Positions 6,124 through 28,407 of a DNA stretch of 35,836 bases are shown here, one piece after another. Within the stretch, counting starts at the first letter, position 1, and each line of letters begins with the position of its first letter. The DNA comes from Verrucomicrobiota bacterium (GTDB taxonomy: Bacteria; Verrucomicrobiota; Verrucomicrobiia; Opitutales; JAKPNF01). The stretch is taken from positions 1 through 35,836 of the forward strand of contig JAKPNF010000041.1 in the NCBI GenBank assembly GCA_029548565.1, read 5' to 3'. Made by a program: the position numbers and the translations under genes. The notes under the pieces are model-generated. The model searched no databases and was not told where the DNA came from. It saw nothing but the letters and a program-made list of their open reading frames with translations.

Positions 6124-6206
6124 GCCCGGATGGCGGAATGGTAGACGCTGCGGACTTAAAATCCGTTGGCCGCAAGGCCGTGGGGGTTCAAGTCCCCCTC
6201 CGGGCA
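6124..6206 (+). tRNA. tRNA-Leu (anticodon UAA)
   Basis: The acceptor stem pairs GCCCGGA (6124-6130) with TCCGGGC (6199-6205), and A6206 is the discriminator. The anticodon loop is CTTAAAA with TAA at 6157-6159, giving UAA for leucine UUA/UUG codons. The gene has a long class II variable arm, GGCC-GCAA-GGCC, and a normal T arm GGGGG-TTCAAGT-CCCCC. CCA is not encoded (ACCCG follows). From 6154 onward its 3' part is repeated at 7332-7386 beyond an AT-rich islet. Confidence 0.96.
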
Positions 6207-6208
6207 CC
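6154..6208 (+). repeat. Left direct repeat (tRNA-Leu 3' part, attL-like)
   Basis: This segment is the 3' part of the intact tRNA-Leu gene, from the anticodon loop to two bases past the discriminator. It matches 7332-7386 at 51 of 55 positions. All four differences lie in the variable-arm stem. Confidence 0.85.
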
Positions 6209-6421
6209 CGTTTGATAATCAGCGAATTAGCCTTCCTCCTCAGAATAAACGATGGAGAAAGGCTTTTTTTGTTTTTCTAATGGAAAACAAAAGACGAAAA
6301 TCTAAGACCAACAACTTGCATGAAACACAACGGATGTTGGTTAGTAGGAAGCAAGCAGCCGAGGGCAAATTGATTTTATATATTTCCTTGCTTAAAACAT
6401 ACCAAATGCCAACATTCTGGC

Positions 6422-7246
6422 ATGGCAGCAAATGGAAAAATATTTGCAGAATTGGCAAAAATTTTACTCTTAGAATTACAGTCAATCGATCCTTCTTTTA
6501 TCCAAAATGAGGATTCTTCTGATCATGATTTGATCGTGACCTATTTCAATTTTTTCTGGCGACATATTCCTGCTTGTATTCGGAAAATCGAAAAAGCAAA
6601 AGGGTTTTTATGCCCGGAAAATCTTTCAAGCGATCTACAACAATTGGAAGAAAAAATATCGTTGGGCTCTGACTTGACACCCTATATGAGTAGGGATTTG
6701 ACCAAGAAAATAAATATTGAAAAACACGACCCGCTTTTAAACGATTGGGGGATTGATCATCTTCATTTCACACCGCAGGGTGGCAAGGAGATAATGTTCG
6801 TGAAAGTCACTGCTGACACGATTTATGAAATAGGCATCTACGACCATAATTCTTGGACAGATATAGATGTACTAAATATAGTAGTCGATAATTGGCCTAA
6901 TTTAATCAAACACTACAAGGTTGTTGGTGACGTAAAACCGGCTTTTGTGTCCGACGGGGATGCAATAAAAAATTTTCGCAAAATTGGGGTGAATTGCCCA
7001 GTGCTCCTCAAAGATGGAAATAACTATTTCCCTCCTGGCGTTGGTGTGATGGCAGATAGAAGTAGTATGGCGGCACACATATGTGCAATGGAATATATCA
7101 ACGATTCATTGTCACGGTTGGCTGAAAAGGTTGTCCATATTACAAAAAACGGAAAGTTCCTATTAATTCATAGCAACCACAAATGCATCGCCCGCATTCC
7201 GCATCCAAAATATTTTATTGAGATTGCACGCAATAATTTTTTCTAG
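6422..7246 (+). CDS. Islet cargo protein of unknown function
   Basis: The 274-residue product is the only gene of the tRNA-Leu islet. It has no signal peptide or membrane segment. The central part reads DWGIDHLHF, then IMFVKVTADTIYEIGIYDHNSWTDIDVLNIV, then NWPNLIKHY; the C-terminal part has FPPGVGVMADRSS. From memory this order (His-x-x-His-Phe followed by a beta-rich segment with a conserved NWP) resembles uncharacterised accessory-genome proteins, but I cannot name a family. The ATG at 6422 is the first start after an in-frame stop at 6371, and it lacks a good ribosome site. Codon use is AT-rich, unlike the flanking genes. Single cargo genes in such islets are often phage-defence or toxin genes, which is only a guess here. 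Confidence 0.7.
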   Translation: MAANGKIFAELAKILLLELQSIDPSFIQNEDSSDHDLIVTYFNFFWRHIPACIRKIEKAKGFLCPENLSSDLQQLEEKISLGSDLTPYMSRDLTKKINIEKHDPLLNDWGIDHLHFTPQGGKEIMFVKVTADTIYEIGIYDHNSWTDIDVLNIVVDNWPNLIKHYKVVGDVKPAFVSDGDAIKNFRKIGVNCPVLLKDGNNYFPPGVGVMADRSSMAAHICAMEYINDSLSRLAEKVVHITKNGKFLLIHSNHKCIARIPHPKYFIEIARNNFF

Positions 7247-14170: not shown

Positions 14171-16057
14171 ATGAGCGAACACAAAACGGAAACACACGCC
14201 TTTCAGGCCGAGGTCAAGCAGGTGCTGGACATCGTCGTCAACTCCCTGTACACCGAGAAGGAAATCTTTTTGCGCGAGCTGGTCTCCAACGCCTCCGACG
14301 CGCTGGAAAAGCTGCGCCACACGCAGCTCAAGGAAAAGGACGTTTTCGAGCCGGACAAGGCGCTGGAGATCTCCATCTCGACCGACGAGGCGGCCGCTCT
14401 GGTCACCATCGCCGACACCGGCATCGGCTTCACGCGCCAGGAGCTGAAGGAAAACATCGGCACGATCGCCCATTCGGGTTCCAAAGCCTTTTTGGAGGCG
14501 CTCAAGGCCACGGGACAGACGCCCAACGAAAACCTCATCGGGCAATTCGGCGTGGGCTTTTACAGCGTGTTCATGGTCGCCAAGAGCGTGAAGGTCTACA
14601 CCCACTCCTGGCAAAAGGACGCCGAGGGGTTGCTGTGGAAAAGCGACGGCTCGGGCTCTTACACGATTGAAGAAGCGCCCGAGGCCGAGCGCGGCAGCAA
14701 GATCGTCATCGAACTGAAAGACGAGTACAAAGAATTTTCAAAGGCCGACCGCGTGAAGGCCGTGCTCGCGCATTACTCGAGTTTCGTGGCCTTCCCTCTC
14801 GCGCTCAACGGCGAGAAGGTCAACACGCAGGAGGCATTGTGGCTCAAGCCCCGCAGCGAAATCACGGACGAAAAAGCGCGCGAATTTTACAAATTCCAAA
14901 GCCAAGCCTGGGATGATCCGCTCACCTGGTTTCATTTCTCGGCGGACGCGCCGCTGGCCGTCAACTCCCTGCTCTTTGTGCCCGGGCATAATTCCGAGTT
15001 GATGGGTCTGTCGCGCATGGAACCGGGCGTGGCGCTGTACTGCCGCAAGGTGCTCATCGACCCCTCGCCCAAAAAGCTATTGCCCGAATGGATGCGCTTT
15101 GTGCGCGGGGTCGTCGACAGCGCGGACTTGCCCCTGAACATCTCGCGCGAGACGATTCAGGAAAGCGCGCTGATCGCCAAGCTCAACCAGGTCATCACGC
15201 GGCGCTTCATCAAATTTCTGGCCGACACCGCGAAGAAAGACGCCGAGCTTTACGAAAAAATCTGGCGCTCTTTCGGCCTCTTTTTAAAGGAAGGCGCCGC
15301 CGGGGATTTCACGCACCAGGACGCGCTTTCAAAACTGCTGCGCTTTGAATCTTCCAGCCTCGAAAAAGGAAAGCTCACCAGCCTCGAGGATTACGTCAGC
15401 CGCATGCGCGAAGGCCAGAAGGAAATTTATTACTTGATGGCCACCGACGGCCGCCAAGCCGCCGAAAGCAGCCCCTACCTCGAGGGTCTCAAGGCTCGCG
15501 GGCTGGAGGTGCTCTTTGCTTACGACCCCATCGACGAGTGGGTCTTCATGCGCCTGTCCAAGTTCGCCGACAAGGAACTTTTCTCTATCGACCGCGACGA
15601 CCTGAAGTTCGAAGACGCCCCCACATCCGACGAAGCGCCCCTAAATGAAGAAGACACAAAAGCCCTCGTCGAATGGCTCAAGGAAAAACTCGGCGATAAA
15701 AAAGTCTCCGACGTGGCCGCCTCCGAGCGCCTCGTGGGTTCCCCCGCCGTCGCCCTCAACGGCGAGCGCATGATGACCCCCCAGATGCGCCGCATGATGC
15801 GCGCCATGCAGGCCGCCAGCGGCAAGCCCGACGAACAACCCGAAAACCCGCCCGTCGTCCTCCAGCTAAACACCCGCCACCCGCTCATCAAGCAACTAAA
15901 CACCTTGCGCGCAAACAACCCCGACACAGCCTCCTTCATCGCCACCCAACTCTACGACAACGCCCTGCTAGCCGCAGGCCTGCTCGAAGACCCCGCCCAA
16001 GCCGCCACCCGCGCCTGGCAACTCATGGAAAAGTTTTTGGAAGGGAAGAAGGAATAA
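14171..16057 (+). CDS. htpG: Chaperone HtpG (Hsp90)
   Basis: The 628-residue product is a full-length bacterial Hsp90. The N-terminal ATPase domain shows VNSLYTEKEIFLRELVSNAS (ATP-binding Glu and Asn), DTGIGF and the lid/phosphate segment IGQFGVGFYS. The middle domain has FVRGVVDSADLPLNISRETIQ with its catalytic arginine, and the C-terminal dimerisation domain follows. It folds and remodels client proteins in the cytoplasm with ATP. AGAAGG lies just before the ATG. No CIRCE-like repeat is visible upstream. Its stop is followed 18 bases later by a two-hairpin repeat. Confidence 0.98.
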   Translation: MSEHKTETHAFQAEVKQVLDIVVNSLYTEKEIFLRELVSNASDALEKLRHTQLKEKDVFEPDKALEISISTDEAAALVTIADTGIGFTRQELKENIGTIAHSGSKAFLEALKATGQTPNENLIGQFGVGFYSVFMVAKSVKVYTHSWQKDAEGLLWKSDGSGSYTIEEAPEAERGSKIVIELKDEYKEFSKADRVKAVLAHYSSFVAFPLALNGEKVNTQEALWLKPRSEITDEKAREFYKFQSQAWDDPLTWFHFSADAPLAVNSLLFVPGHNSELMGLSRMEPGVALYCRKVLIDPSPKKLLPEWMRFVRGVVDSADLPLNISRETIQESALIAKLNQVITRRFIKFLADTAKKDAELYEKIWRSFGLFLKEGAAGDFTHQDALSKLLRFESSSLEKGKLTSLEDYVSRMREGQKEIYYLMATDGRQAAESSPYLEGLKARGLEVLFAYDPIDEWVFMRLSKFADKELFSIDRDDLKFEDAPTSDEAPLNEEDTKALVEWLKEKLGDKKVSDVAASERLVGSPAVALNGERMMTPQMRRMMRAMQAASGKPDEQPENPPVVLQLNTRHPLIKQLNTLRANNPDTASFIATQLYDNALLAAGLLEDPAQAATRAWQLMEKFLEGKKE

Positions 16058-16275: not shown

Positions 16276-17370
16276 TTAGCGTTTCTTCTTTGCCGGTTTT
16301 TTGGCAGCGGGTTTCGCTTTGGCTTTTGCCTTGGGAGCGGATTTCTTAGGCGCAGCCTTTTTCGGCGCGGGTTTTTTCGCAGACGCTTTTTTCGGAGCAG
16401 GCTTGGCTGGCTTTTTCACCGGCTTTTTGGCGGCAGGTTTCGCCGCTTTCTTTGCGGGCTTGGCCTTTGCCTTGGGCGCGGGCTTTTTCGCGGGCGCTTT
16501 TTTGGCGGCGGGTTTAGACGCCTTTACCAACTTTTTCGGTTCCGGTTTTTTGGCGACTTGTTTCTTGTCCGCCTTTTTGGAAGGTTTTTCTGCCTGCTTG
16601 CCCTTGCCTTTTTTGGGGGAGGCGAACAGTTCCTCGTCGCCTTCTTCGGGTTGCAGGGGGGGGACGTAGTTTTCGTCGTGCTCCTCCTTGCCTTCTTCCT
16701 CCTCGTCCCACTTCATGGTCTCGTCCTCGTCGAGCGAGCCGTCGTCCTCGGCTTCCGGCAGTTCCTCGATCTCGGGGATTTCTTCCTCCTCCACCTTGAC
16801 GGGCTTTTCCTCCTCCTGGGCGGGGTCGTCCAGCTCGTAACCGGCCGGCACGTATTCCAGAATGTCGGTGATCTCGCGAAAGGCGTGGATCGTGCGGCCT
16901 TCCAAAAAGGCGTTGTGGTGGTCTTCGCGGATCTCGTCCTCCAGGTCGTCCACCGTCAGGCGCTGCTCAAAGTCGATGCTGTCGTTGAGCATCTTCACGC
17001 GCACCTTGGTGATGTGGTTCAAAAAGTCCGCGTAGGCGCTGCGGTCCTCGTCGAGCGTGTCGCCGAGCCAAAACAGCGGCTCCTCGGATTCAAAAATATT
17101 GTCCGTCACGCGCACGAGCCTCAGGCGCTTGTCGGGCATCGGCTTGTCGACCGCGAAGGGGAAGAAGGCCGCGCGCACGATGTCGGTGTCCAGCCCGTGG
17201 TCGCGCAGCGGCTCGAGCAGATCGATGATGTGCGCGCCCTGGCGCGGGTCGATGATGCTTAGGCCCTCGGTGTCCCAACGCACGGGGTCGCTCGTCTCGA
17301 CGACCCACCAGTTGAGATCCTTGGAAAGGCTTATGATGCACCAGTTTAATTTCGGAGAACTCTTGGACAT
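16276..17370 (-). CDS. Acidic/lysine-rich tailed protein, unknown
   Basis: The 364-residue product has three parts. Residues 1-185 form a globular domain with no family I can name (NWCIISLSKDLNWWVVETSD, GAHIIDLLEPLRDHGLDT, FWLGDTLDEDRSAYADFLN). Residues 186-265 are strongly acidic with Glu/Asp runs. Residues 270-364 are a histone H1-like tail of Lys, Ala and Pro (AKKAPAKKPAPKAK repeats). The acidic stretch could mask the basic tail or bind another partner. The same kind of tail is on RsfS in this window. The gene is divergent from pyrD, and nothing nearby explains it. A role in nucleoid or ribosome binding is inference. Confidence 0.75.
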   Translation of the reverse strand: MSKSSPKLNWCIISLSKDLNWWVVETSDPVRWDTEGLSIIDPRQGAHIIDLLEPLRDHGLDTDIVRAAFFPFAVDKPMPDKRLRLVRVTDNIFESEEPLFWLGDTLDEDRSAYADFLNHITKVRVKMLNDSIDFEQRLTVDDLEDEIREDHHNAFLEGRTIHAFREITDILEYVPAGYELDDPAQEEEKPVKVEEEEIPEIEELPEAEDDGSLDEDETMKWDEEEEGKEEHDENYVPPLQPEEGDEELFASPKKGKGKQAEKPSKKADKKQVAKKPEPKKLVKASKPAAKKAPAKKPAPKAKAKPAKKAAKPAAKKPVKKPAKPAPKKASAKKPAPKKAAPKKSAPKAKAKAKPAAKKPAKKKR

Positions 17371-17516: not shown

Positions 17517-18581
17517 ATGATGGACATCCTTTACGAGAAGGTGTGCAGGCCGCTGTTTTTCCGGATGGACCCGGAAAAGGTGCACGAGCAGGCGATTTTC
17601 GCGCTGCGGCTGATGGGCAAGGTGCCGCTGATGCACACCCTCATGCGCCGTTACAACGCATCGAAAGGCAAGCCCGTGCGCCTGTTTGGCGTGGATTTCC
17701 CCAACCACGTGGGCGTGGCCGCGGGCTTTGACAAGGACGCCCAGGCCTGGCACCTGATGGACGCGCTGGGTTACGGGTTTGTCGAGATCGGCACCGTCAC
17801 GGCGCTCAAGCAGCCGGGCAACCCGCGACCGCGCGTGTTTCGCGCCGTCAAGGAACAGGCGCTGATCAACCGCATGGGCTTCCCCAACGACGGGGCCGAG
17901 CAAATCGCCGCGCGCCTGAAGGCCGACCTGCGCAAGCACAAGCGCCACCTGCCGCTGGGCATCAACATCGGCAAGTCCAAGATCATCCCGATCGACCAGG
18001 CCGTGGCCGACTACACCGAATGCTTTCTGGCGCTGGCCGATTACGCCGACTACATGGTCGTCAACATCTCCAGCCCCAACACCCCCGACCTGCGCAAACT
18101 CCAAGGCGACACTTACCTGCCCGACCTGCTCGGCCACCTGCAAAAAACCAACCGCGAGCGCGCCAAAAAGCTCGGCCAGAACCCCCTGCCGCTGGTGCTG
18201 AAAATCGCGCCCGATCTGTCTTATCCCGAGATCGACGCCATTTTAACACACATCCAGCAAAACGAGTTCGCGGGGCTGATCGCCACCAACACCACCGTCG
18301 CCCGCCCCCCGCAATACCATTTGCCCGCCGAAACCGGAGGCCTCTCCGGCCGCCCGCTCTCGCAAAAAGCCCTCGACATCGTGCGCTACATCGCCCTGCG
18401 CACCGAAGGCAAACTGCCCCTGATCGGCTGCGGCGGCATCATGGACACGGCAGACGCCGGCCGCCTGATGGACGCCGGCGCCCACCTCCTGCAAATCTAC
18501 ACCGGCATGATCTATCACGGCCCCTTCTTCGCCAGAGAAATCGCCGACTCCCTGTCCTGGCGGCAGAGGGACTGGGTGTGA
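17517..18581 (+). CDS. pyrD: Dihydroorotate dehydrogenase (quinone), class 2
   Basis: It oxidises dihydroorotate to orotate and passes electrons to quinone at the membrane, the fourth step of pyrimidine synthesis. The 354-residue product has the N-terminal helical extension of class 2 (LYEKVCRPLFFRMDPEKVHEQ), FMN-binding VGVAAGFDKDAQAW, INRMGFPNDGA, NIGKSK, and the active-site loop VNISSPNTPDLRKLQ with the class 2 serine. The closing GCGGIMDTADAGRLMDAGA and LQIYTGMIY bind FMN phosphate. The start at 17517 has AAGGA five bases upstream; the next ATG at 17520 is equally possible. A two-hairpin repeat follows the stop. Confidence 0.97.
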   Translation: MMDILYEKVCRPLFFRMDPEKVHEQAIFALRLMGKVPLMHTLMRRYNASKGKPVRLFGVDFPNHVGVAAGFDKDAQAWHLMDALGYGFVEIGTVTALKQPGNPRPRVFRAVKEQALINRMGFPNDGAEQIAARLKADLRKHKRHLPLGINIGKSKIIPIDQAVADYTECFLALADYADYMVVNISSPNTPDLRKLQGDTYLPDLLGHLQKTNRERAKKLGQNPLPLVLKIAPDLSYPEIDAILTHIQQNEFAGLIATNTTVARPPQYHLPAETGGLSGRPLSQKALDIVRYIALRTEGKLPLIGCGGIMDTADAGRLMDAGAHLLQIYTGMIYHGPFFAREIADSLSWRQRDWV

Positions 18582-18721: not shown

Positions 18722-19378
18722 ATGTCTGAATTTCCTGATACACCGCGTACGGCCATTGGTTTCATGGCCAAGGATCCCAATGCAGTCGACAGAATACTCT
18801 GGGAAAAATCCTGGCGTACGTTCCACCGGATTTACTCAAATTTTATCCGCGCCTGCGTCATCTGGCGCTTTCGCAAATACAACTGGAATCCTAGCGAATC
18901 TCTTGTCGACGAAGCCACCTCCAACGTCTTCAAGGTACTGCTGACAAAAGTCCCCGATTATGACGAACAGCGCGCACATTTCCACCAGTATTTAAGAGGT
19001 ATCGTCTGGCGGGTCGTCTGGGAACTCATCAAGGCCAGAAAAAACGACAACCACGCCACCTCGCTGGACGAGGCGCACATGGAATTAACAAGCCCGCCCG
19101 ATCAACTCGATGCCCTGTGCGAAGACGAACGCACCTGCGCCATCGAGGCATTGCACGCAGAAATTCTGGATCTGGCGAAAAAACGCTGTTCCCCGCGCAT
19201 GGCCATGATCTTCCACATGCGCACCACCGAAAATAAAACCCCCGAGCAAGTCGCCGCCGAGTTAGACATCCCCCGCAGCACCGTCGATAACGAAAAATAC
19301 AAATTCACCAAGCTGCTCGAAAAAATCGCGCAAGAAGAACCGTTTAAGGATGATTTTGGACGAGTATGTCACTCTTAA
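18722..19378 (+). CDS. ECF-type RNA polymerase sigma factor
   Basis: The 218-residue product has region 2 in the first half (IYSNFIRACVIWRFRK, then DEATSNVFKVLL and FHQYLRGIVWRVVWELIK) and region 4 at the end with the helix-turn-helix KTPEQVAAELDIPRSTVDN. There is no region 1 or 3, as in ECF sigma factors. It should direct RNA polymerase to a small regulon. The gene converges on a membrane Ser/Thr kinase gene and overlaps its end by 35 bases. ECF sigma factors next to such kinases are known in planctomycetes and relatives, where phosphorylation may control the sigma factor; that link is inference here. I see no clear ribosome site. Confidence 0.88.
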   Translation: MSEFPDTPRTAIGFMAKDPNAVDRILWEKSWRTFHRIYSNFIRACVIWRFRKYNWNPSESLVDEATSNVFKVLLTKVPDYDEQRAHFHQYLRGIVWRVVWELIKARKNDNHATSLDEAHMELTSPPDQLDALCEDERTCAIEALHAEILDLAKKRCSPRMAMIFHMRTTENKTPEQVAAELDIPRSTVDNEKYKFTKLLEKIAQEEPFKDDFGRVCHS

Positions 19379-20836
19379 ATAGAGCATCCTGCATATCTTC
19401 GAGCGAATCATCTTCCCTCGACGCATTTACCCTAATTCCTGGATCCAAAAGTTCTGGATAATCTTTGTGCAAACGATGAAAAATTTCAGAGGCACCGCTT
19501 ATCATTTTATGACGATTTACTTTCTCATAAAAAGTTTTGTTCATCAGGATAGCCCATTCTTGTCTCGAAAAATATTCATCATTCCGCCTTATAGCCGCGA
19601 GAAAACAGATCACCGTTTTCATATCATCGTAAGACAGTTTCAGAAATTCCAACAATAAGGCAGAGGGCGCGTCATTACCTTTGGGTGGATTTTTGTTTGC
19701 GCGAGCCTTCCGTTGGCAGGTTTCCAAAATTTGGAACGCCTTTGGATCTTCGGCATATTGGCGCACCTTCGTCTTCAATTTTTCATTAAAACGCGTATCC
19801 ACACTCAAGCAATAGGGCATATGGTATTGAATTATAGTCTCGATCGAATGCGCGCGATCTGCTGCAGGAAAAAGTGGAACTATTTCCGGATAAGGATCCG
19901 GTGCTGAAATTTTTAATAGCGCTGCCGTATAAATGCCCAACGCCACCAACGCGGCGGCAAACCCAAAAAACAATTTTCTCTTTTTGCGAAGAGACATCCG
20001 TCCAAGCACATCGTTTCGAAATTCAAGAGCGCTACGATACTGCTCGCGCGAATGCAAGGTCGTGGCGCGGTTGATCACCAGGTTGCGCAAGCGCTGGTAT
20101 TCTTTTTGTGTGTCGGGGTGAAATTCGCCCTGCGGTGGCTTCCAATTGTTGCTCCAGTTCCAGAATTGCGGGCTTTTGGCCGTGAGAATATAAAACAGCA
20201 CACCCGCCAGGCTCCAATAATCGGGGTTGGAATTTATGTCGGCGGGCTTGCGAAAATAATCTGTGCCGTACGCGGCCGTGGTCTCGTCCGCGATTTTCAA
20301 AAGCCCAATGTCCGCCAGGGTCGCAATACCGCCGATAAAGAGAATATTACTTGGCTTGATGTCGCGGTGGCACAAACCCGTTTGCTCCAAAAAGGCTACC
20401 GCCTCGAACAATGGCCGCATAAGTGCCCGTGTTTCAGCTATCGAAAACCAATCGGGACGCTGCAGTCGCTGTTGCACATAGCTTTCGAGCGTCTGCGGCC
20501 GCCAATCGGGGTCGGCAGGGTCTTTTTGGTCAATGCCGTCGGCCAGGGGCATTATATAATACAAAAACCCCTGTGCTGTCTGCGCGAAGTCCGTGATCGC
20601 CAAAAGCCCGCTGACCGACTTTCCACAAGCGCGCTGATACAAGGCCGCGGCGTTTTGCTCGTGATTCTTAAAATGGGCGAGCGCTTCATTGACGATTTTC
20701 ACCGCGCAATACTGCTCTGCGCCGTTTTTGGCCAAATAGACACGTCCAAAGGCTCCCCGCCCGATTTCGGCACAAGCTCATACCCCGCAACGGTAAATTG
20801 CTCTGAGGAAGGCCCGTTTTCGCATTGGGGTGGCAT
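19344..20836 (-). pseudogene. Membrane Ser/Thr protein kinase, frameshifted near the N-terminus
   Basis: The long frame (463 codons from a TTG at 20735) has the kinase core but lacks the glycine loop: AVKIV (ATP Lys), HRDIKPSN (catalytic Asp and Asn), ADIGLLK in place of DFG, and the DYWSLAGV stretch. One transmembrane segment follows (KLFFGFAAALVALGIYTAAL), then about 190 extracytoplasmic residues. The missing start can be read upstream: an ATG at 20836 gives MPPQCENGP and then FTVAGYELVP, and the perfect glycine loop EIGRGAFGRVYLAK continues in the next frame. One base appears to be lost near 20768-20771. The gene is either a fresh pseudogene, read with a sequence error, or frameshifted. 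Restored, it is an ordinary full-length kinase. Confidence 0.8.
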
Positions 20837-20844
20837 TGTTGAAA

Positions 20845-20872
20845 ATTATAGGCCGTTTAAAATCCCCTTCAA
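20845..20872 (-). promoter_or_regulatory. Candidate promoter of the Ser/Thr kinase gene
   Basis: Read on the minus strand, TTGAAG (20872-20867) is followed after 16 bases by a perfect TATAAT (20850-20845). Only eight bases separate the box from the restored ATG at 20836, so the message would be leaderless or nearly so. It supports the upstream start for the kinase. Confidence 0.5.
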
Positions 20873-21036
20873 TAATGATTTTTTGAAAATAATTTCTGAT
20901 AGGACATCCTTTGTCCCCTCACTATTGGTAAAATCCTTTTCTATTAAAAATACCAAAAAATCTCCGGAGAGAAATCATCCCAAAACGCCAATAACTGTTT
21001 GAACACCCAAACACAGTCCTCTCTTACCGGGCCACC

Positions 21037-21300
21037 ATGAACAAGAAAATACACACACGAGCGCCGCTGCGGCGAATGCTCCTCATCCACCAGCTCATCG
21101 AACGCGAAAAATATCCCAACTCCCGCACCCTCGCCGAAACACTCGAAGTCTCACGCAAAACAGTCCTGCGCGACATAGAATTTATGACCCTACAACTAGA
21201 ACTACCCATCAAATACAACGCCGCAAAACGCGGCTACTATTACGCCAGGCACTTCACCCGCGCTAAAAATGAGAATTTTGTGAAGAAATTGTTTAAGTAA
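21037..21300 (+). CDS. Short HTH protein (WYL-regulator N-terminus-like)
   Basis: The 87-residue product is a winged helix-turn-helix: RMLLIHQLIEREKYPNSRTLAE and LEVSRKTVLRDIEFM form the DNA-reading helices, and KYNAAKRGYYYA is the wing. Exactly this arrangement opens DeoR/YafY-type regulators that go on to a WYL ligand domain of about 200 residues. Here the protein stops 20 residues after the wing. It may be a truncated regulator or a stand-alone binder. It is the first gene of an AT-rich block on the plus strand and divergent from the kinase. Confidence 0.65.
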   Translation: MNKKIHTRAPLRRMLLIHQLIEREKYPNSRTLAETLEVSRKTVLRDIEFMTLQLELPIKYNAAKRGYYYARHFTRAKNENFVKKLFK

Positions 21301-21364
21301 TAATTTTCCGCCTCAACAATAAGACCATCCAATCTATAAAAACATTCTATAAAAATAATCTCAC

Positions 21365-21613
21365 ATGAACGAATATTTCGGCATAGCAGTCATCCTGATC
21401 ATCATCGCGGTCGCCGTTGTCCTAGATAAATACTACGGCCTGGAAAAAGTTATGATCGGCTTTTTACAAATCGTGGCCGTAATCGCTCTATTCGTGTGCG
21501 TTCCTGCCACATTTTCCAATTATATGGAGAATAATTTTCAAGCCACAATAATTTTTACACTCTGGGGAATGACTGCTCTTTATTTTCTGATGGAGACAGT
21601 GGAGAGAAAGTAG
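21365..21613 (+). CDS. Small membrane protein, unknown
   Basis: The 82-residue product has three probable transmembrane helices: FGIAVILIIIAVAVVLDKYY, VMIGFLQIVAVIALFVCVPA, and TIIFTLWGMTALYFLM. It ends in a charged tail (ETVERK). No family is recognised. It lies in the AT-rich block between a short HTH protein and two zinc-ribbon membrane proteins, spaced 40-65 bases apart, and lacks a clear ribosome site. Confidence 0.5.
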   Translation: MNEYFGIAVILIIIAVAVVLDKYYGLEKVMIGFLQIVAVIALFVCVPATFSNYMENNFQATIIFTLWGMTALYFLMETVERK

Positions 21614-21653
21614 CGAGAATATTAATTTTATATAAACACAACTTTCAATTATC

Positions 21654-22004
21654 ATGTTCTGTTCTAATTGCGGGAATCAACTGGAAGATAGGGATGCCGT
21701 CTGCATGAAATGCGGGTGTCCAACAGGAAATTCCTTCCGACTATTACCAACTGCACCTATTGCTGGCCTTTTAGGTCTTTTGGGAGTGTTATATTCGTGC
21801 ATAACTCCGGCGTCGCTAATTTTTTCTGCTCTGAGTATATTTTTAGGAAAAAGAGCACTTACAATTATAAAAAAGGATCCTAATTTTCAAGGAGAACGAT
21901 GGGCGCGCTGGGAGATTGTTTTGGGAATAATATCACTATTATTAACATGCTTTGTCGTTCTAAGCCCCGGCGCCTTCGCTTTCATTGAAAATTTACTGTC
22001 ATAA
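21654..22004 (+). CDS. Zinc-ribbon membrane protein
   Basis: The 116-residue product opens with a zinc ribbon, MFCSNCGNQLEDRDAVCMKC, with the C-x-x-C...C-x-x-C pattern. Two or more hydrophobic segments follow (APIAGLLGLLGVLYSCITPA and IVLGIISLLLTCFVVLSPGA), the layout of DUF4190-like membrane proteins. The ribbon should face the cytoplasm. The function is unknown. A second zinc-ribbon membrane protein follows 26 bases downstream, which suggests duplication or joint work. Confidence 0.65.
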   Translation: MFCSNCGNQLEDRDAVCMKCGCPTGNSFRLLPTAPIAGLLGLLGVLYSCITPASLIFSALSIFLGKRALTIIKKDPNFQGERWARWEIVLGIISLLLTCFVVLSPGAFAFIENLLS

Positions 22005-22030
22005 CCGAATTAATTAAATATACATATATT

Positions 22031-22591
22031 ATGTTTTGCCAAAAATGCGGAACCGAAATCAATGACTTTGCCGTTATCTGCGTACACTGCGGTAAAAAAA
22101 TAAGCGCTCATCCCAGCAGCACTCCCATAGTAAAAAAAGAAGCGGACGGTTGTACGTCTTTTTTGGCCATAATCGGCATATTAGCGATCGTCGGCGTGGG
22201 AGCATTGTTTATTTCTGGTCCATCGTTAAGTGACTACTCAAGTCCATCAAACTATCACGATGCAAGTTCATCTCCAACCAATTCAGAAATGCTCGAAAAA
22301 ATAGAAACAAAGGGACATTGGGGGAAACTTTTCACGGAAGCCTGTTCATTTTACAATGCGACACGAAGCGTCAGGCAACATTCTAATGGTCGTTACAGGG
22401 TGACAATAGAAGGCACGATGATCATGTCGCCCGTTCACTCATCTCACGTGAAATTTGAATATTTTTGCGACGACGATGGAGACATTATTAGATCAATGGG
22501 CTGCAGTGCCGAACTTGATGGCAAACCAACATCAACCGAAACGCTTATGAATGCCTTGCTGGGGCTTGGCAAAATGAATATGGGAATGTAA
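22031..22591 (+). CDS. Zinc-ribbon membrane protein with extracytoplasmic domain
   Basis: The 186-residue product has an N-terminal zinc ribbon (MFCQKCGTEINDF, then VICVHCGKK), one transmembrane segment (FLAIIGILAIVGVGALFI) and a C-terminal domain of about 120 residues beginning after a Ser/Pro-rich linker (SSPSNYHDASSSP). The C-terminal domain (RSVRQHSNGRYRVTIEGTMI) looks beta-rich, with no known family. Its stop overlaps the start of the next gene by one base (TAATG), so the two are coupled. Confidence 0.65.
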   Translation: MFCQKCGTEINDFAVICVHCGKKISAHPSSTPIVKKEADGCTSFLAIIGILAIVGVGALFISGPSLSDYSSPSNYHDASSSPTNSEMLEKIETKGHWGKLFTEACSFYNATRSVRQHSNGRYRVTIEGTMIMSPVHSSHVKFEYFCDDDGDIIRSMGCSAELDGKPTSTETLMNALLGLGKMNMGM

Positions 22592-23646
22592 TGAAAAAAT
22601 TTCAAAGAACACCTAAAATCGCATTCGTTATGAAAAATAAAATTATTCGTCTGACTTTATTGATGATTGGGGCATTCAATCTTTCCACAACCACATGCAG
22701 GAGTGCAGAGGAAGAATTTACAGCGGCTCAAAACGGAGATATCGAAGCTCAAATGCATTTGGCTGACGCTTATTACACGGGAGCATCGAAATACATCCCG
22801 AAAGGCGAATTCCAAAGAGACAAAGAAAAAGCATTGGAATGTTATTGCAAGGCAGCAAAACAAGGAGACAGTGATGCTTATTTAAATATAATATCCCTAA
22901 TCGCACTAAACACTTTGTCCGAAAAAAATATCACGACAAACGAACTGTTTGAGGCATATCTAAAAGGATGGGAGGACTCCATGCAATATCGTCCATCCAA
23001 TGACGAAAAGTACGAGCCATCTAGACTAAGAGTTGCCAAAAAAATATCTACTGTTATCGAAAGGAGAAAATTTTTGCGCGAGGCATTTTCTGGAGGTATA
23101 GATTATAATAGTGCAACTCGCACTTTTTCATCTGATCTCCGTAATAATGGAGCGGCCGCGAAAGACTTTTTCTCAAAAGTAGTTCAGGTTTGCACGAAAG
23201 AGGAACTTGCTTTCTTCGGCGAAATTGTCAAACGCGCTGGACCTTTAAAAGGATGGCTAGATGATATAAGTGAAGGGCTTTCTCCAGAAATTGGGGCTAT
23301 ATACAAAAGCGGTTTGAGCGTGAGAAATGACATGAAAATCATACAAATCATCGATGGGAAAGAATTACTTGTTCGCAGCGTTGCAGGCCCTGGATGGCCG
23401 CAAATTCTAGGAAGTCATATCCTACACATAACTCTCGCTAGCACTAGAGAATTTAAAAAATACGATACAACACTGGATACTGATTTCTATAAGTATATGG
23501 GAGAAAAGACATATACCACCGTTAGAGGATTTAAGAACACAATTCACTCTTTTGCGGAAGTACTCGACCCAAAACAAATTTCTTTCATTTTTCAATCATG
23601 CTTATTCCCAAAGGATACTTATCCATCTGCTCGAGAACGTTGGTGA
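22591..23646 (+). CDS. Sel1-repeat-like secreted protein
   Basis: The 351-residue product carries an internal hydrophobic signal (IIRLTLLMIGAFNL) and then TPR/Sel1-like repeats: EFTAAQNGDIEAQMHLADAY with YTG, and KALECYCKAAKQGDSDAYLN. The remaining 230 residues are not recognised. The ATG at 22591 is coupled to the preceding gene by TAATG; an ATG at 22630 (MKNKIIRL) gives a shorter, more usual signal peptide. Sel1 repeats bind other proteins, and many are exported. The C-terminal end overlaps a minus-strand stretch with a faint resemblance to the end of HemB. Codons are AT-rich, like the rest of the block. Confidence 0.65.
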   Translation: MKKFQRTPKIAFVMKNKIIRLTLLMIGAFNLSTTTCRSAEEEFTAAQNGDIEAQMHLADAYYTGASKYIPKGEFQRDKEKALECYCKAAKQGDSDAYLNIISLIALNTLSEKNITTNELFEAYLKGWEDSMQYRPSNDEKYEPSRLRVAKKISTVIERRKFLREAFSGGIDYNSATRTFSSDLRNNGAAAKDFFSKVVQVCTKEELAFFGEIVKRAGPLKGWLDDISEGLSPEIGAIYKSGLSVRNDMKIIQIIDGKELLVRSVAGPGWPQILGSHILHITLASTREFKKYDTTLDTDFYKYMGEKTYTTVRGFKNTIHSFAEVLDPKQISFIFQSCLFPKDTYPSARERW

Positions 23647-23777: not shown

Positions 23778-23983
23778 TCAAACGTTTCCCTCTGCCACCT
23801 GCTCGGCAAAGTAGGTGAAGACAAAATCGGCACCGGCGCGGAAAATCGATAAAAGAGATTCGTCACGGGCTTTTTTCAGGTCGAGCCAGCCGTTTTGGGC
23901 GGCGGCGTGAATTTGGGCGTATTCGCCGGAAACTTGGTAGGCGGCTAATGGGATGCGGGTGGCATCGCGCAGTTCGCCCTCAG
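23778..23983 (-). pseudogene. Displaced hemB 3' end
   Basis: Read on the minus strand this gives the last 65 or so codons of porphobilinogen synthase, from ELRDATRIPLAAYQVSGEYA through HAAAQNGWLDLKKARDESL to FTYFAEQVAEGNV and a stop. The stretch 23857-23945 equals 27381-27469 of the intact hemB at 86 of 89 bases, with lower identity on both sides. There is no 5' part and no start. It looks like the original hemB tail left at the far end of an inserted island. Confidence 0.88.
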
Positions 23984-24035
23984 CAGACAGGAAAAGTGGC
24001 GGCAGTCGATGGGTTTATATCACCTGATTTGAATA

Positions 24036-25775
24036 TCAAAGGCGAAGGGTTGCCGAGCAGGATGAAGCTGAATTTGTCGTGGGGGCTTGTTCGCAGGTGG
24101 GCATTAGCGGGCGGTAGCGTTCCGATTGGGGAACATTTTCGCGGATAAAGACCGTGTAATCGCGCCAGCTGCGGACATTTGATCCCAGCATTGCCAAAAG
24201 CAGGGCGATCATAATGACTATCCTGACGCGCGTGTTTTTCACAAGCTTTTCCAAAAGCAGAACCATCAATCCCAGGTACGCCCATTGAAAATAGTAAGAA
24301 TACAAGGTCGCCGATTTTTCGGCACAACCCCACCCCACAATAACGACGATAAAAACACTCGCAAAAACCCAGGTCGCGCTCACCTTGGCTATCAGCAAGC
24401 GCCTATTGGCATAAAGGCTCAACAAGGCGAGCAGAAAAATAAACCCGCCCAAAAAGACAAAATTATATTCAGTGCAATTCGAAATATAGGCGGCGTAATT
24501 ACCACTGTCTGAAAGGGTCGGGCTATCCAAACTGTAGAGGGTGTTGGGCTGCACAAAAATGCCGCTGAGGGAATCGGAAAATTGAACCACATTGTTCGAA
24601 TCGCGGCTCGCAAAGCGGCCCACCAGCGCGTCGGCCGCGAGAAATTTGACCACGGTGTGCAACTGGCCGAATATCAAAATAAGAGCCACGAAAATCAACC
24701 CCCACTTCAAGAGCGAGCCGATCCATTTTTTAAACGTGTTTCCCGCGCCCGCAAAAAATATCAGTATCCCGCTGCTCAAAAGCATGGTCGTGCTGGCCAT
24801 ATAAAGGGGCGTTCTGGCCGGGTCTTTGCGCACGATCGCCAAAACTGTCAGCGACACAAAAAAGATGCTCATCACATATTGTTCGGGGAAAATGGCGTTC
24901 ATAATCGCCGAGAAGGAAAAGCAGTACAAAAGAATGAAGCATGTCGAAGACACCCGCCCCAGTCCAAACGCCCGCGAAAAATTAAGGGCGCTGAAAACAA
25001 TCAGGCCAATGTTCGCGAAACAGGCCAGCAGGGGAAAAATATCCTTGCAGCTGACCGCCTCAACCGCGAAAGCCAGCAATGCAAACGGCACCATTATCGG
25101 CATTGAAAATATCCCGAATGTGCTTTCCTTTAGCAGGTTGGCCTGGTGGCATATGTATGTGTAGGCATTCGATATGCTGTTAAATGAATCGCTGTACCAG
25201 TTGCGAAGCTGCCACAGTGTGTCGGTGTCGTAGAAAAACAGGTTCGCCTGGACATTGTAGGCGAACAAATAGTAGGCCGCAGCAGCAAACAAAACGACCC
25301 AGGCAAACACGCCCGCAGCCGCCTCGCAAACACAAATGCCGCGCAAAAAAGCCGGCAGGCGGTCAAAGACGAATTTCATGAGAAAAACGTAGATCACATA
25401 CAAGGCGTAAACACTCGCCACGCCAACCAGGATCACCGCCACAGTGCCGCCGCAGCGCAACAACGCCGAAAGGGAAGGATATACCTTTACGCTCAAGAAA
25501 AGCCAAAAGTTGCCAATAAACGCGACCGCGGTCATCACGGCCCACAAAAAAGAGACATGCCCTATTCTCTTATTTTCGGACACAATCGCGCAGGCGCGGC
25601 GTACCACGTCGAGTTTTTTCAGCAAAACAATGCCCACGAGCAAAACAATGGGCGGGGTCAGCGCATAACCTATCAAGGACTGCATCTGGTTCGTGTTTGT
25701 CGCTATCTGCAACAATCCTATCGACATTAGCGAAACAACAAAACACGCGTTCTTCAATTTGGGCGGGAAGGTCAT
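24036..25775 (-). CDS. Polytopic membrane protein, GT-C-like
   Basis: The 579-residue product is almost all hydrophobic, with about 12 transmembrane helices. The longest outside loop begins after the fourth helix and contains FFYDTDTLWQLRNWY (residues 180-195), an acidic DTD motif where GT-C glycosyltransferases carry their sugar-donor site. A second large loop lies at about 395-440. GT-C enzymes take a sugar from a polyprenyl-phosphate carrier in the outer leaflet. That fits with the next gene, an enzyme that loads such a carrier. The C-terminal tail (CEQAPTTNSASSCSATLRL) looks like run-on sequence at the island end. The fold call is an inference from topology and motif; no family was recognised directly. 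Confidence 0.5.
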   Translation of the reverse strand: MTFPPKLKNACFVVSLMSIGLLQIATNTNQMQSLIGYALTPPIVLLVGIVLLKKLDVVRRACAIVSENKRIGHVSFLWAVMTAVAFIGNFWLFLSVKVYPSLSALLRCGGTVAVILVGVASVYALYVIYVFLMKFVFDRLPAFLRGICVCEAAAGVFAWVVLFAAAAYYLFAYNVQANLFFYDTDTLWQLRNWYSDSFNSISNAYTYICHQANLLKESTFGIFSMPIMVPFALLAFAVEAVSCKDIFPLLACFANIGLIVFSALNFSRAFGLGRVSSTCFILLYCFSFSAIMNAIFPEQYVMSIFFVSLTVLAIVRKDPARTPLYMASTTMLLSSGILIFFAGAGNTFKKWIGSLLKWGLIFVALILIFGQLHTVVKFLAADALVGRFASRDSNNVVQFSDSLSGIFVQPNTLYSLDSPTLSDSGNYAAYISNCTEYNFVFLGGFIFLLALLSLYANRRLLIAKVSATWVFASVFIVVIVGWGCAEKSATLYSYYFQWAYLGLMVLLLEKLVKNTRVRIVIMIALLLAMLGSNVRSWRDYTVFIRENVPQSERYRPLMPTCEQAPTTNSASSCSATLRL

Positions 25776-25802
25776 AGTGATCTCAAAAAATCAAAAGCAC
25801 TG

Positions 25803-27290
25803 TCAGGGTGCAAGGGGCTGGGCCAAAAGAAAAAAACAGACAAACAACAGCCCTAGAAAATAATTTTCCTTCGTCTTCAAGGCATAAACAACAGGGTCGT
25901 GGTGAACCGCGCCGCGCATGGCCATGACCCAAATCTTAGTGAAGAAATAAATAAAAATAACCGTCGTGTAATACAGGTAATCGGCGCGCTGATAATACCT
26001 GAATGCCTCCAGCGCGATGTAAATAACATAAACAAGCACCGCAATCATCCCCGCCGCCACGCCGACGGACAACAGCACCTGGGTGTCGCTTTTGACATAA
26101 CCCCTGCCCGCCAACGCCTCCGTGGCGGCTTCGCGCACTTCCACAAAACGCTTGAGCATACCCAGGCTAAAAAAAGCGAACAGCGCAAAACCCAGCAACC
26201 AGGGCGATATGCGGATATCCAGCGCGACGGCGCCGGCGAAAATCCTCAGCATATACAAAACCGCCAGGGCTATCACGTCTACCACGACGAGGCGCTTGAG
26301 ATAGAAGGAATATGACAATGTCAAAACGATGTAGCACGCCAAAATCGCGATCAACCCGCCACCGGGGTTCGCAATAAAGCCCAATACCAGCGAAAACAAA
26401 AGCATCGCCGGTATCGCAACCAGCGCAAACGCTATCGACAGACGCCCTGCGGCCAAAGGCCGCCTGCGTTTGTGCGCATGCGCGCGGTCGGCCTCCAAGT
26501 CGAGCAAATCGTTGAACAAGTAGGTGCCCAAAGAGCAAAAACTAAACGCCGCGAACGCAAGTACCGATAATCCGATCGAGGCCAAATCACCGTACAGGTG
26601 CCCCACGAACAAAGGAACAAAAATCAGGAAGTTTTTCGCGATCTGGTGAATGCGTATCGCCTTGAAAAAATTTCCAAGAAAAGAACCGCTTTTCAAAATG
26701 ATCACATCCACGCCTTTTTCTCGAAACCGCCGCGTCGCACGGCGCGCCAACGCTGCGGGAGCGTTCACCACAATCGCCTTGGACGATCGTTCCCACACAG
26801 GCATATCGCAACGGGCATTGCCGGCGTATTCATAGTGCTGAAATCCGAGCGTTTTTTCTATGAAATCCGTCTTGGCCGTCCCTTTCAAATTGAGAGAGCC
26901 TTTGGTTCCGAACACCCCGTCAAACAAAGCAATTGCGCCTTGAGTTTCAGCCGTGGCCACAATTTTTTTTGCCAAAGACTCCTCACAGGCGGTTATCACA
27001 AAAATCCTATGGCCGAGTGCCTTCTTTTCGCGCAAATAATCAAGCAGCTTTTCGTTGACGGGCACATGATTGAGGTAGCGGGCGCCCAATGCCGTCATTT
27101 TGTGTTTCAGCGCCGCGATACCACCGCAAAAAGGCAGTGACAAAAGCGAAAGCGGCCTATGTTTTAAAATCCTGACAAACAGTTCAAAAAGCGTGTCCGT
27201 GCAAATAAGTGTCCCGTCCAAATCGACAAATATCGGATCAAGCGCGTTGTTTTTCGACGCCGCCAAAGCTGGAGACTCAGGAGTTTGCAT
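25803..27290 (-). CDS. HAD phosphatase-UbiA prenyltransferase fusion (DPPR synthase-like)
   Basis: Residues 18-200 are a HAD phosphatase domain (FVDLDGTLICTDTLFELFV with the nucleophile D23 and D25). Residues 205-495 are a UbiA membrane prenyltransferase with NDLLDLEADRAH and then KRRRPLAAG at about 260-282, the signature of the decaprenyl-phosphate phosphoribosyltransferase branch. Such enzymes join phosphoribose to polyprenyl phosphate, and the HAD domain would then remove the 5-phosphate, giving a polyprenyl-phospho-ribose sugar donor. The order is known as two separate proteins in mycobacteria and as fusions in many bacteria. The start codon overlaps the hemB stop (TAATG), so translation is coupled to hemB. 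The likely acceptor is a cell-surface glycan. Confidence 0.85.
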   Translation of the reverse strand: MQTPESPALAASKNNALDPIFVDLDGTLICTDTLFELFVRILKHRPLSLLSLPFCGGIAALKHKMTALGARYLNHVPVNEKLLDYLREKKALGHRIFVITACEESLAKKIVATAETQGAIALFDGVFGTKGSLNLKGTAKTDFIEKTLGFQHYEYAGNARCDMPVWERSSKAIVVNAPAALARRATRRFREKGVDVIILKSGSFLGNFFKAIRIHQIAKNFLIFVPLFVGHLYGDLASIGLSVLAFAAFSFCSLGTYLFNDLLDLEADRAHAHKRRRPLAAGRLSIAFALVAIPAMLLFSLVLGFIANPGGGLIAILACYIVLTLSYSFYLKRLVVVDVIALAVLYMLRIFAGAVALDIRISPWLLGFALFAFFSLGMLKRFVEVREAATEALAGRGYVKSDTQVLLSVGVAAGMIAVLVYVIYIALEAFRYYQRADYLYYTTVIFIYFFTKIWVMAMRGAVHHDPVVYALKTKENYFLGLLFVCFFLLAQPLAP

Positions 27291-28306
27291 TACAAAGAAT
27301 TTTGTGCGATGTTTCTTGCATACGCCAGGGCGAAGTAGGTGAACACGAAATCCGCGCCCGCGCGGAAGATGGCGGTTAGGGATTCGTCACGGGCTTTTTT
27401 CAGGTCTAGCCAACCGTTTTGGGCGGCGGCGTGGATTTGGGCGTATTCGCCGGAAACTTGGTAGGCGGCGATGGGCAAACGAGTTTCGTTACGTAATTCG
27501 TGCAGGATGTCCAGATAAGGCAAGGCGGGTTTGACCATTAGGATGTCCGCGCCTTCTTGTTCGTCTAAAAGGGCGTCGCGCAGGGTTTCGCGGCGGTTGG
27601 CGGGAGGGAGCTGGTAAGTACTTTTATCCGCGGGGCCGCCCCCTTGGGAGGCGCCGACGGCTTCGCGGAAGGGGCCGTAGTAGGCGCTGGCGAATTTGGC
27701 GGCGTAGGCCATGATGCCGGCTTGAGAAAGCCCTGCCCTATCCAGCGCCGCGCGGATCGCGCCGACGCGGCCGTCCATCATGTCGGAGGGCGCCACAAAA
27801 TCCGCGCCAGCTTGGGCGTGCAGGACGGCCATGTTGCAAAGAATTTCGACGGTCGCGTCGTTGTCCACGTCCGAGCCGTCGGGCGTCAGCACGCCGTCGT
27901 GGCCGTGGGTGGTGTAGGGGTCGAGCGCAATATCGGAAAAACACGGCAACTGCGGCGCGGCTTTTTTAATCTCGCGGATCGCCCGCAGCACGAGGGTGTC
28001 GGCGTTGAGCGCCTCGGTGCCCTGCTCGTCTTTAAGCGCGGGGTCTATTTTCGGGAAAACCGCGATGCCGCCCAGTCCCAAGTCCGCCAATTCGCTTGCG
28101 TGCGTACCAATGTCTTTTAAGGGGATGCGGAAAATTCCCGGCAACGAAGCAATCGCCTCTTTTTCGTCGCCCTTGATGATAAAAACGGGCTGCACGAGTT
28201 TGCTAACCTCCACGCGCGTCTCACGCACCAGCGCGCGCACGGCGGCGCTTTTGCGCAGGCGGCGCGGGCGGATGGGCAAACGGGACGCGTTTTCGGAAGG
28301 TTTCAT
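27290..28306 (-). CDS. hemB: Porphobilinogen synthase (delta-aminolevulinate dehydratase)
   Basis: The enzyme joins two 5-aminolevulinate molecules into porphobilinogen for heme and other tetrapyrroles. The 338-residue product has the two Schiff-base lysines (MAYAAKFASAYYGPFR and ILMVKPALPYLD), SDMMDGRV and the late AAYQVSGEYA. The metal site reads DIALDPYTTHGHDG without cysteines, so the enzyme should be of the Mg-type, not the zinc-cysteine type. I chose the ATG at 28306 (AGGGAGA about 11 bases upstream); 28372 would add 22 residues and overlap the cysS region. The last 14 residues (FALAYARNIAQNSL) differ from the displaced copy at 23778-23983. It is divergent from cysS. Confidence 0.96.
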   Translation of the reverse strand: MKPSENASRLPIRPRRLRKSAAVRALVRETRVEVSKLVQPVFIIKGDEKEAIASLPGIFRIPLKDIGTHASELADLGLGGIAVFPKIDPALKDEQGTEALNADTLVLRAIREIKKAAPQLPCFSDIALDPYTTHGHDGVLTPDGSDVDNDATVEILCNMAVLHAQAGADFVAPSDMMDGRVGAIRAALDRAGLSQAGIMAYAAKFASAYYGPFREAVGASQGGGPADKSTYQLPPANRRETLRDALLDEQEGADILMVKPALPYLDILHELRNETRLPIAAYQVSGEYAQIHAAAQNGWLDLKKARDESLTAIFRAGADFVFTYFALAYARNIAQNSL

Positions 28307-28407
28307 AAGCGTAAACGTCTCCCTATCTTCGCTTAAATGCGGATGCCTTTCCAGTAAAATTCGTCTTTTCATAAGGTCTCGCCGTGCATTAGGATAGAAG
28401 GCTGTCC

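Follow-up and report, generated by a model that had tools for sequence, protein, structure and literature searches.

What event placed a second 3' end of hemB, the gene for porphobilinogen synthase, 3.5 kb downstream of the intact gene, with two further genes lying between them? The window analysed here is a whole contig (C107; 35,836 nucleotides) from a genome of 2.14 Mb that is 97% complete in 170 contigs, and core genes flank the hemB unit on both sides of the contig (Table 1). The intact hemB is divergent from cysS and thrS. Its closest counterparts (~65–69% identical) belong to the order's other families or to MAGs that bear the titles Puniceicoccales and Opitutae/Verrucomicrobia; the relatives compared include no genome of the window organism's own family. 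The original prediction had taken the duplicated gene end to mark a two-gene island that used the 3' end of hemB as a target for integration.

Table 1. Coordinates of the features at and near the hemB locus (window positions).
Feature	Position	Strand	Description
First gene of the pair adjoining hemB in relatives	16276-17370	-	function unknown
Second gene of the pair adjoining hemB in relatives	17517-18581	+	dihydroorotate dehydrogenase
Orphan hemB 3' fragment	23778-23975	-	65 codons, ELRDATR to its own stop TGA (23778-23780)
Counterpart of the 89-bp block in the hemB fragment	23857-23945	-	
Joint linking the membrane-protein gene's end to the hemB fragment's truncated 5' end	23976-24035	.	upstream without visible hemB homology
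Polytopic membrane protein	24036-25775	-	579 aa
HAD-UbiA fusion prenyltransferase, decaprenyl-phosphate phosphoribosyltransferase-like	25803-27290	-	NF006088; PF01040 + PF12710
Intact hemB (porphobilinogen synthase)	27290-28309	-	PF00490, 1.7e-125; NF006762, 442.7 bits (cutoff 297)
89-bp near-identical block in intact hemB, inferred recombination or conversion tract	27381-27469	-	

Protein and DNA searches of the 97%-complete genome find hemB in these two places only, with no third copy. The intact gene closes with ...FALAYARNIAQNSL and a stop (the ending also given as ALAYARNIAQNSL). The orphan fragment is without a start codon while its frame is intact, reading ELRDATRIPLAAYQVSGEYAQIHAAAQNGWLDLKKARDESLLSIFRAGADFVFTYFAEQVAEGNV to the stop, and its tail (AEQVAEGNV) is unlike the C-terminus of the intact gene, as the original prediction had described for a fragment of the last 65 or so residues. 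Both tails resemble genuine hemB tails among relatives, and the match of the fragment to hemB is not due to chance (E = 9e-30 in the whole-protein search, 2.4e-45 for DNA). A profile search extended the homology of the fragment to 24134, but the upstream part of that match belongs to the membrane-protein gene and nucleotide homology stops at 23976-23978. The two copies have in common F44 and V51 (numbering of the 57-residue compared region), each of which is found in 0 of 92 relatives, indicating that the second hemB came from the organism's own close lineage. The grouping of the fragment with the host hemB, on which the original prediction had staked its reading, is thereby supported.

The duplication is more extensive than the 89 bp first noticed. 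In the same orientation, 172 bp of the hemB 3' region (27329-27500) recur without gaps at 23805-23976, at an offset of 3524 and with 82% identity overall, and within them the predicted near-identical block stands out sharply. In the block the copies differ at three of 89 bp (23883, 23889 and 23910), all at third codon positions and synonymous, whereas the 84 flanking bases compared contain 28 differences (~33% DNA divergence). Outside this core identity falls to ~60–70% and the homology then ends at either side, in agreement with the drop predicted on both sides of the block. The sequence that borders the block, on both sides and in both copies, is still hemB at the protein level, only diverged. 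Exact matches between the two copies reach 35 bp at most.

Codons that specify the same residue show the contrast as well: the block has 3 differing codons out of 28, the flanks 13 out of 21 (Fisher P = 2e-4; a segment-scan permutation that allows for the post-hoc choice of segment gives 25/4000), or 14 out of 22 in a second count for the flanks. Comparison of relatives with one another rules out that silent sites of the block are under special constraint, since over 4,278 pairs silent divergence is nearly the same in the block (0.57) as in the flanks (0.59). Among the 2,034 pairs of relatives with comparable flank divergence, none has a block as alike as the one here, which argues that the block was homogenised by recombination. 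From the sequences compared, two well-diverged hemB genes appear to have been made alike over ~90 bp, either through a crossover whose heteroduplex was then repaired or through gene conversion. Compared with relatives, the block is also better conserved than the flanks (80% versus 63% mean amino-acid identity), which fits a place where crossing-over between diverged genes can begin. The open frame of the orphan fragment, together with the synonymous nature of all three block differences, indicates that the fragment is young.

Two genes lie between the copies, as had been predicted. The first encodes a HAD-UbiA fusion that passes the curated cutoff of its family (476.8 bits against NF006088, cutoff 351, residues 13–491), and its start overlaps the hemB stop (TAATG), which couples ubiA to the hemB tail now in place. 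The second encodes the membrane protein, which matches no Pfam or NCBIfam family and has no PDB relative, nor any phage or plasmid relative in the collections searched. An alternative frame considered as the true end of this gene is unsupported by homologues. In the phylum sample, all three other genomes with a homologue of the membrane protein (G389:C174:8559-10408, G107:C2:206414-208346 and G151:C19:21432-23326) carry it directly upstream of a UbiA-family gene, showing that the pair recurs; it is apparently an uncharacterised conserved two-gene pair. The order differs here: the gene for the NF006088 protein (PRK08238) belongs to a hemB operon and precedes the membrane-protein gene. The membrane protein is likely a glycosyltransferase-like partner of UbiA, and the pair probably acts in the synthesis of lipid-linked sugars or envelope glycans.

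Composition and gene order set the unit apart from its surroundings. Its GC content is 50–51% and its GC3 61–64%, compared with 58–61% and 73–82% for neighbouring core genes. Behind hemB, relatives carry a conserved convergent gene (at 32 of the 32 loci where that gene was found) and a dihydroorotate dehydrogenase gene, an arrangement seen for example at L002, L033 and L041. None of the relatives' 130 hemB loci contains a UbiA gene or a second hemB copy, and each of 62 other genomes of the same order with hemB yields a single hemB match. Because the convergent gene, and never UbiA, follows hemB in relatives, the hemB unit of the window is derived. To this extent the predicted island holds, as both gene order and GC mark the unit as derived; the part of the prediction that cast hemB as a tRNA-like integration target is not supported.

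In the window the relatives' pair is present, but inverted relative to hemB, ~9 kb away and next to htpG (14171-16057). The zone behind hemB has thus been rearranged more than once, and what lies to the left of the fragment is no longer the flank that hemB had ancestrally. Between the hemB unit and the inverted pair lies an AT-rich stretch (18722-23646, 39–51% GC versus ~58%) encoding ECF-like sigma factor, Ser/Thr kinase-like, HTH, two zinc-ribbon and Sel1-repeat proteins, which looks like a separate acquired region. Elsewhere on the contig, an open reading frame of 38% GC (6422-7246) that has no Pfam match lies behind a tRNA-Leu (TAA) gene, a possible small insertion at a tRNA gene (6124-7246).

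The explanation we favour, at a probability of roughly 0.45, is that ~3.5 kb of the hemB-ubiA operon of a related bacterium was inserted by a single homologous crossover in a conserved segment of hemB. The donor piece would have run from codon ELR inside hemB, through the tail and ubiA, to just past the membrane-protein gene, and would have been joined end to end (circularised) before insertion. One crossover in the conserved YQVSGEYAQIHAAAQNGWLDLKKARDES segment of the host hemB would then fuse the host 5' part to the donor tail and donor operon, leaving the truncated start of the donor hemB joined to the original host tail at the far end as an orphan fragment. Repair of the heteroduplex at the crossover would render the 89-bp block near-identical in both copies. 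No integrase is required by such an insertion, after which the unit would run as a hemB-ubiA-membrane protein operon.

In one event the single crossover accounts for the truncated start of the fragment at the membrane-protein gene, for the putative hybrid flanks and for the block, and the direct repeats that bound the 3524-bp unit count in favour of a Campbell-type insertion, in which two direct copies of the target flank the insert. The earlier proposal that the tail of the intact gene arrived with the incoming DNA is compatible with the data and is what a single-crossover insertion predicts. In E. coli, with ligated linear DNA, single crossing-over, which gives duplications, is far commoner than one-sided illegitimate insertion (PMC3240628). 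Three observations weigh against the single crossover. RecA exchange is disfavoured by the ~33% DNA divergence of the flanks, unless a well-matched patch was there beforehand, the non-ancestral left flank of the fragment means that further rearrangement occurred, and GC3 is uninformative as to which upstream flank goes with which tail, the four segments being too short for a parental assignment.

The main rival, which we consider less probable, is that incoming DNA with an entire or almost entire hemB, ubiA and the membrane-protein gene replaced the host hemB and left a remnant of it behind. Here a crossover would have taken place upstream of the compared region while the other end was joined illegitimately inside the host hemB, sparing its last 65 codons, and a later short conversion between copies 3.5 kb apart would have homogenised the 89-bp block. 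Such a history predicts the differing flanks on both sides of the block, and the joint (Table 1) is without homology, as in homology-facilitated illegitimate recombination. Orphan 3' regions of matching geometry have been proposed in T6SS immunity arrays and Rhs genes (PMC5361080). However, replacement requires two events, an insertion and then a conversion, and one-sided insertion of this type is rare (PMC3240628). In addition, all three block differences are synonymous, which is less expected of a pseudogene drifting after conversion, though this concerns three sites only.

An origin within the genome itself is less probable still. An old tandem duplication of hemB around ubiA and the membrane-protein gene, with most of the second copy deleted and the block converted, would need no external donor and would explain why the residues absent from every relative are common to both copies. 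However, the silent divergence of the flanks equals that between members of the order, so that two hemB genes would have had to coexist for a long time, which sits poorly with the single hemB of the other genomes of the order and with a fragment whose frame is still open.

A genomic island integrated by an integrase at the 3' end of hemB, with the 89-bp repeat as attL and attR and with the integrase since lost or supplied in trans, is very improbable. Direct repeats at both ends, a restored gene end and a GC content below that of the surroundings are what such an island would display. The scanned genes (Pfam/PHROGs) include no integrase or mobility gene, however, either between the repeats or at 17–24 kb, and insertion at hemB does not recur among the 62 genomes of the order. 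Furthermore, hemB homology continues for ~30 bp past the block on the element side, and a single integration exchange would not homogenise 89 bp. No hemB was found in viral contigs, and no report of hemB as an integration site was found in the literature searched. Equally improbable is an artefact of assembly or binning. Two diverged hemB ends on one contig of a 170-contig assembly could represent two strains, but the longest exact match is below usual final k-mers, the joint lies outside any repeat and the contig has core genes on both sides.

The hemB locus is a real and well-supported recombination scar, ordinary in kind. It looks like the product of ordinary recombination between two related bacteria and not of a mobile element that targets hemB. 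As a fossil it is clean, recording how plain homologous recombination with a diverged relative can give a housekeeping gene new operon partners downstream, and the tract of the crossover or conversion can still be seen. A second lesson is that direct repeats of gene ends should not be read as integrase att sites unless their borders have been checked. A more far-reaching reading, for which we see little chance, is that the conserved hemB 3' segment is where incoming pieces of operons naturally land in this unsampled Opitutales-like family, in which case family members should carry differing hemB tails and differing downstream cargo. T6SS and Rhs loci with their orphan-tail arrays would be the parallel, except that a housekeeping gene is involved here.

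Three known systems bear comparison with the locus. Genomic islands are established at the 3' ends of protein-coding genes such as icd, guaA and prfC. As in those islands, the gene end is directly repeated at both borders, and the end of the intact gene would have been supplied by the element; unlike them, the hemB unit has no integrase that could be found, its repeat is embedded in longer diverged hemB homology and the insertion does not recur.

For orphan immunity genes and Rhs tails, it has been proposed that a host gene was displaced while its tail stayed behind (PMC5361080). The Rhs/CDI and T6SS orphan 3' regions share with hemB a 5' part that is kept, a new 3' end accompanied by downstream genes, and an old 3' end left downstream. 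They differ in that a housekeeping enzyme is the target here, its displaced tail would be equivalent in function, what remains of it is a pseudogene and the downstream genes are envelope biosynthesis-like. Campbell-type insertion-duplication likewise yields two partial direct copies of the target flanking the insert and involves no integrase, whereas the event at hemB would have been a natural one between strongly diverged genes, in which the crossover block was homogenised and the donor piece came without a vector.
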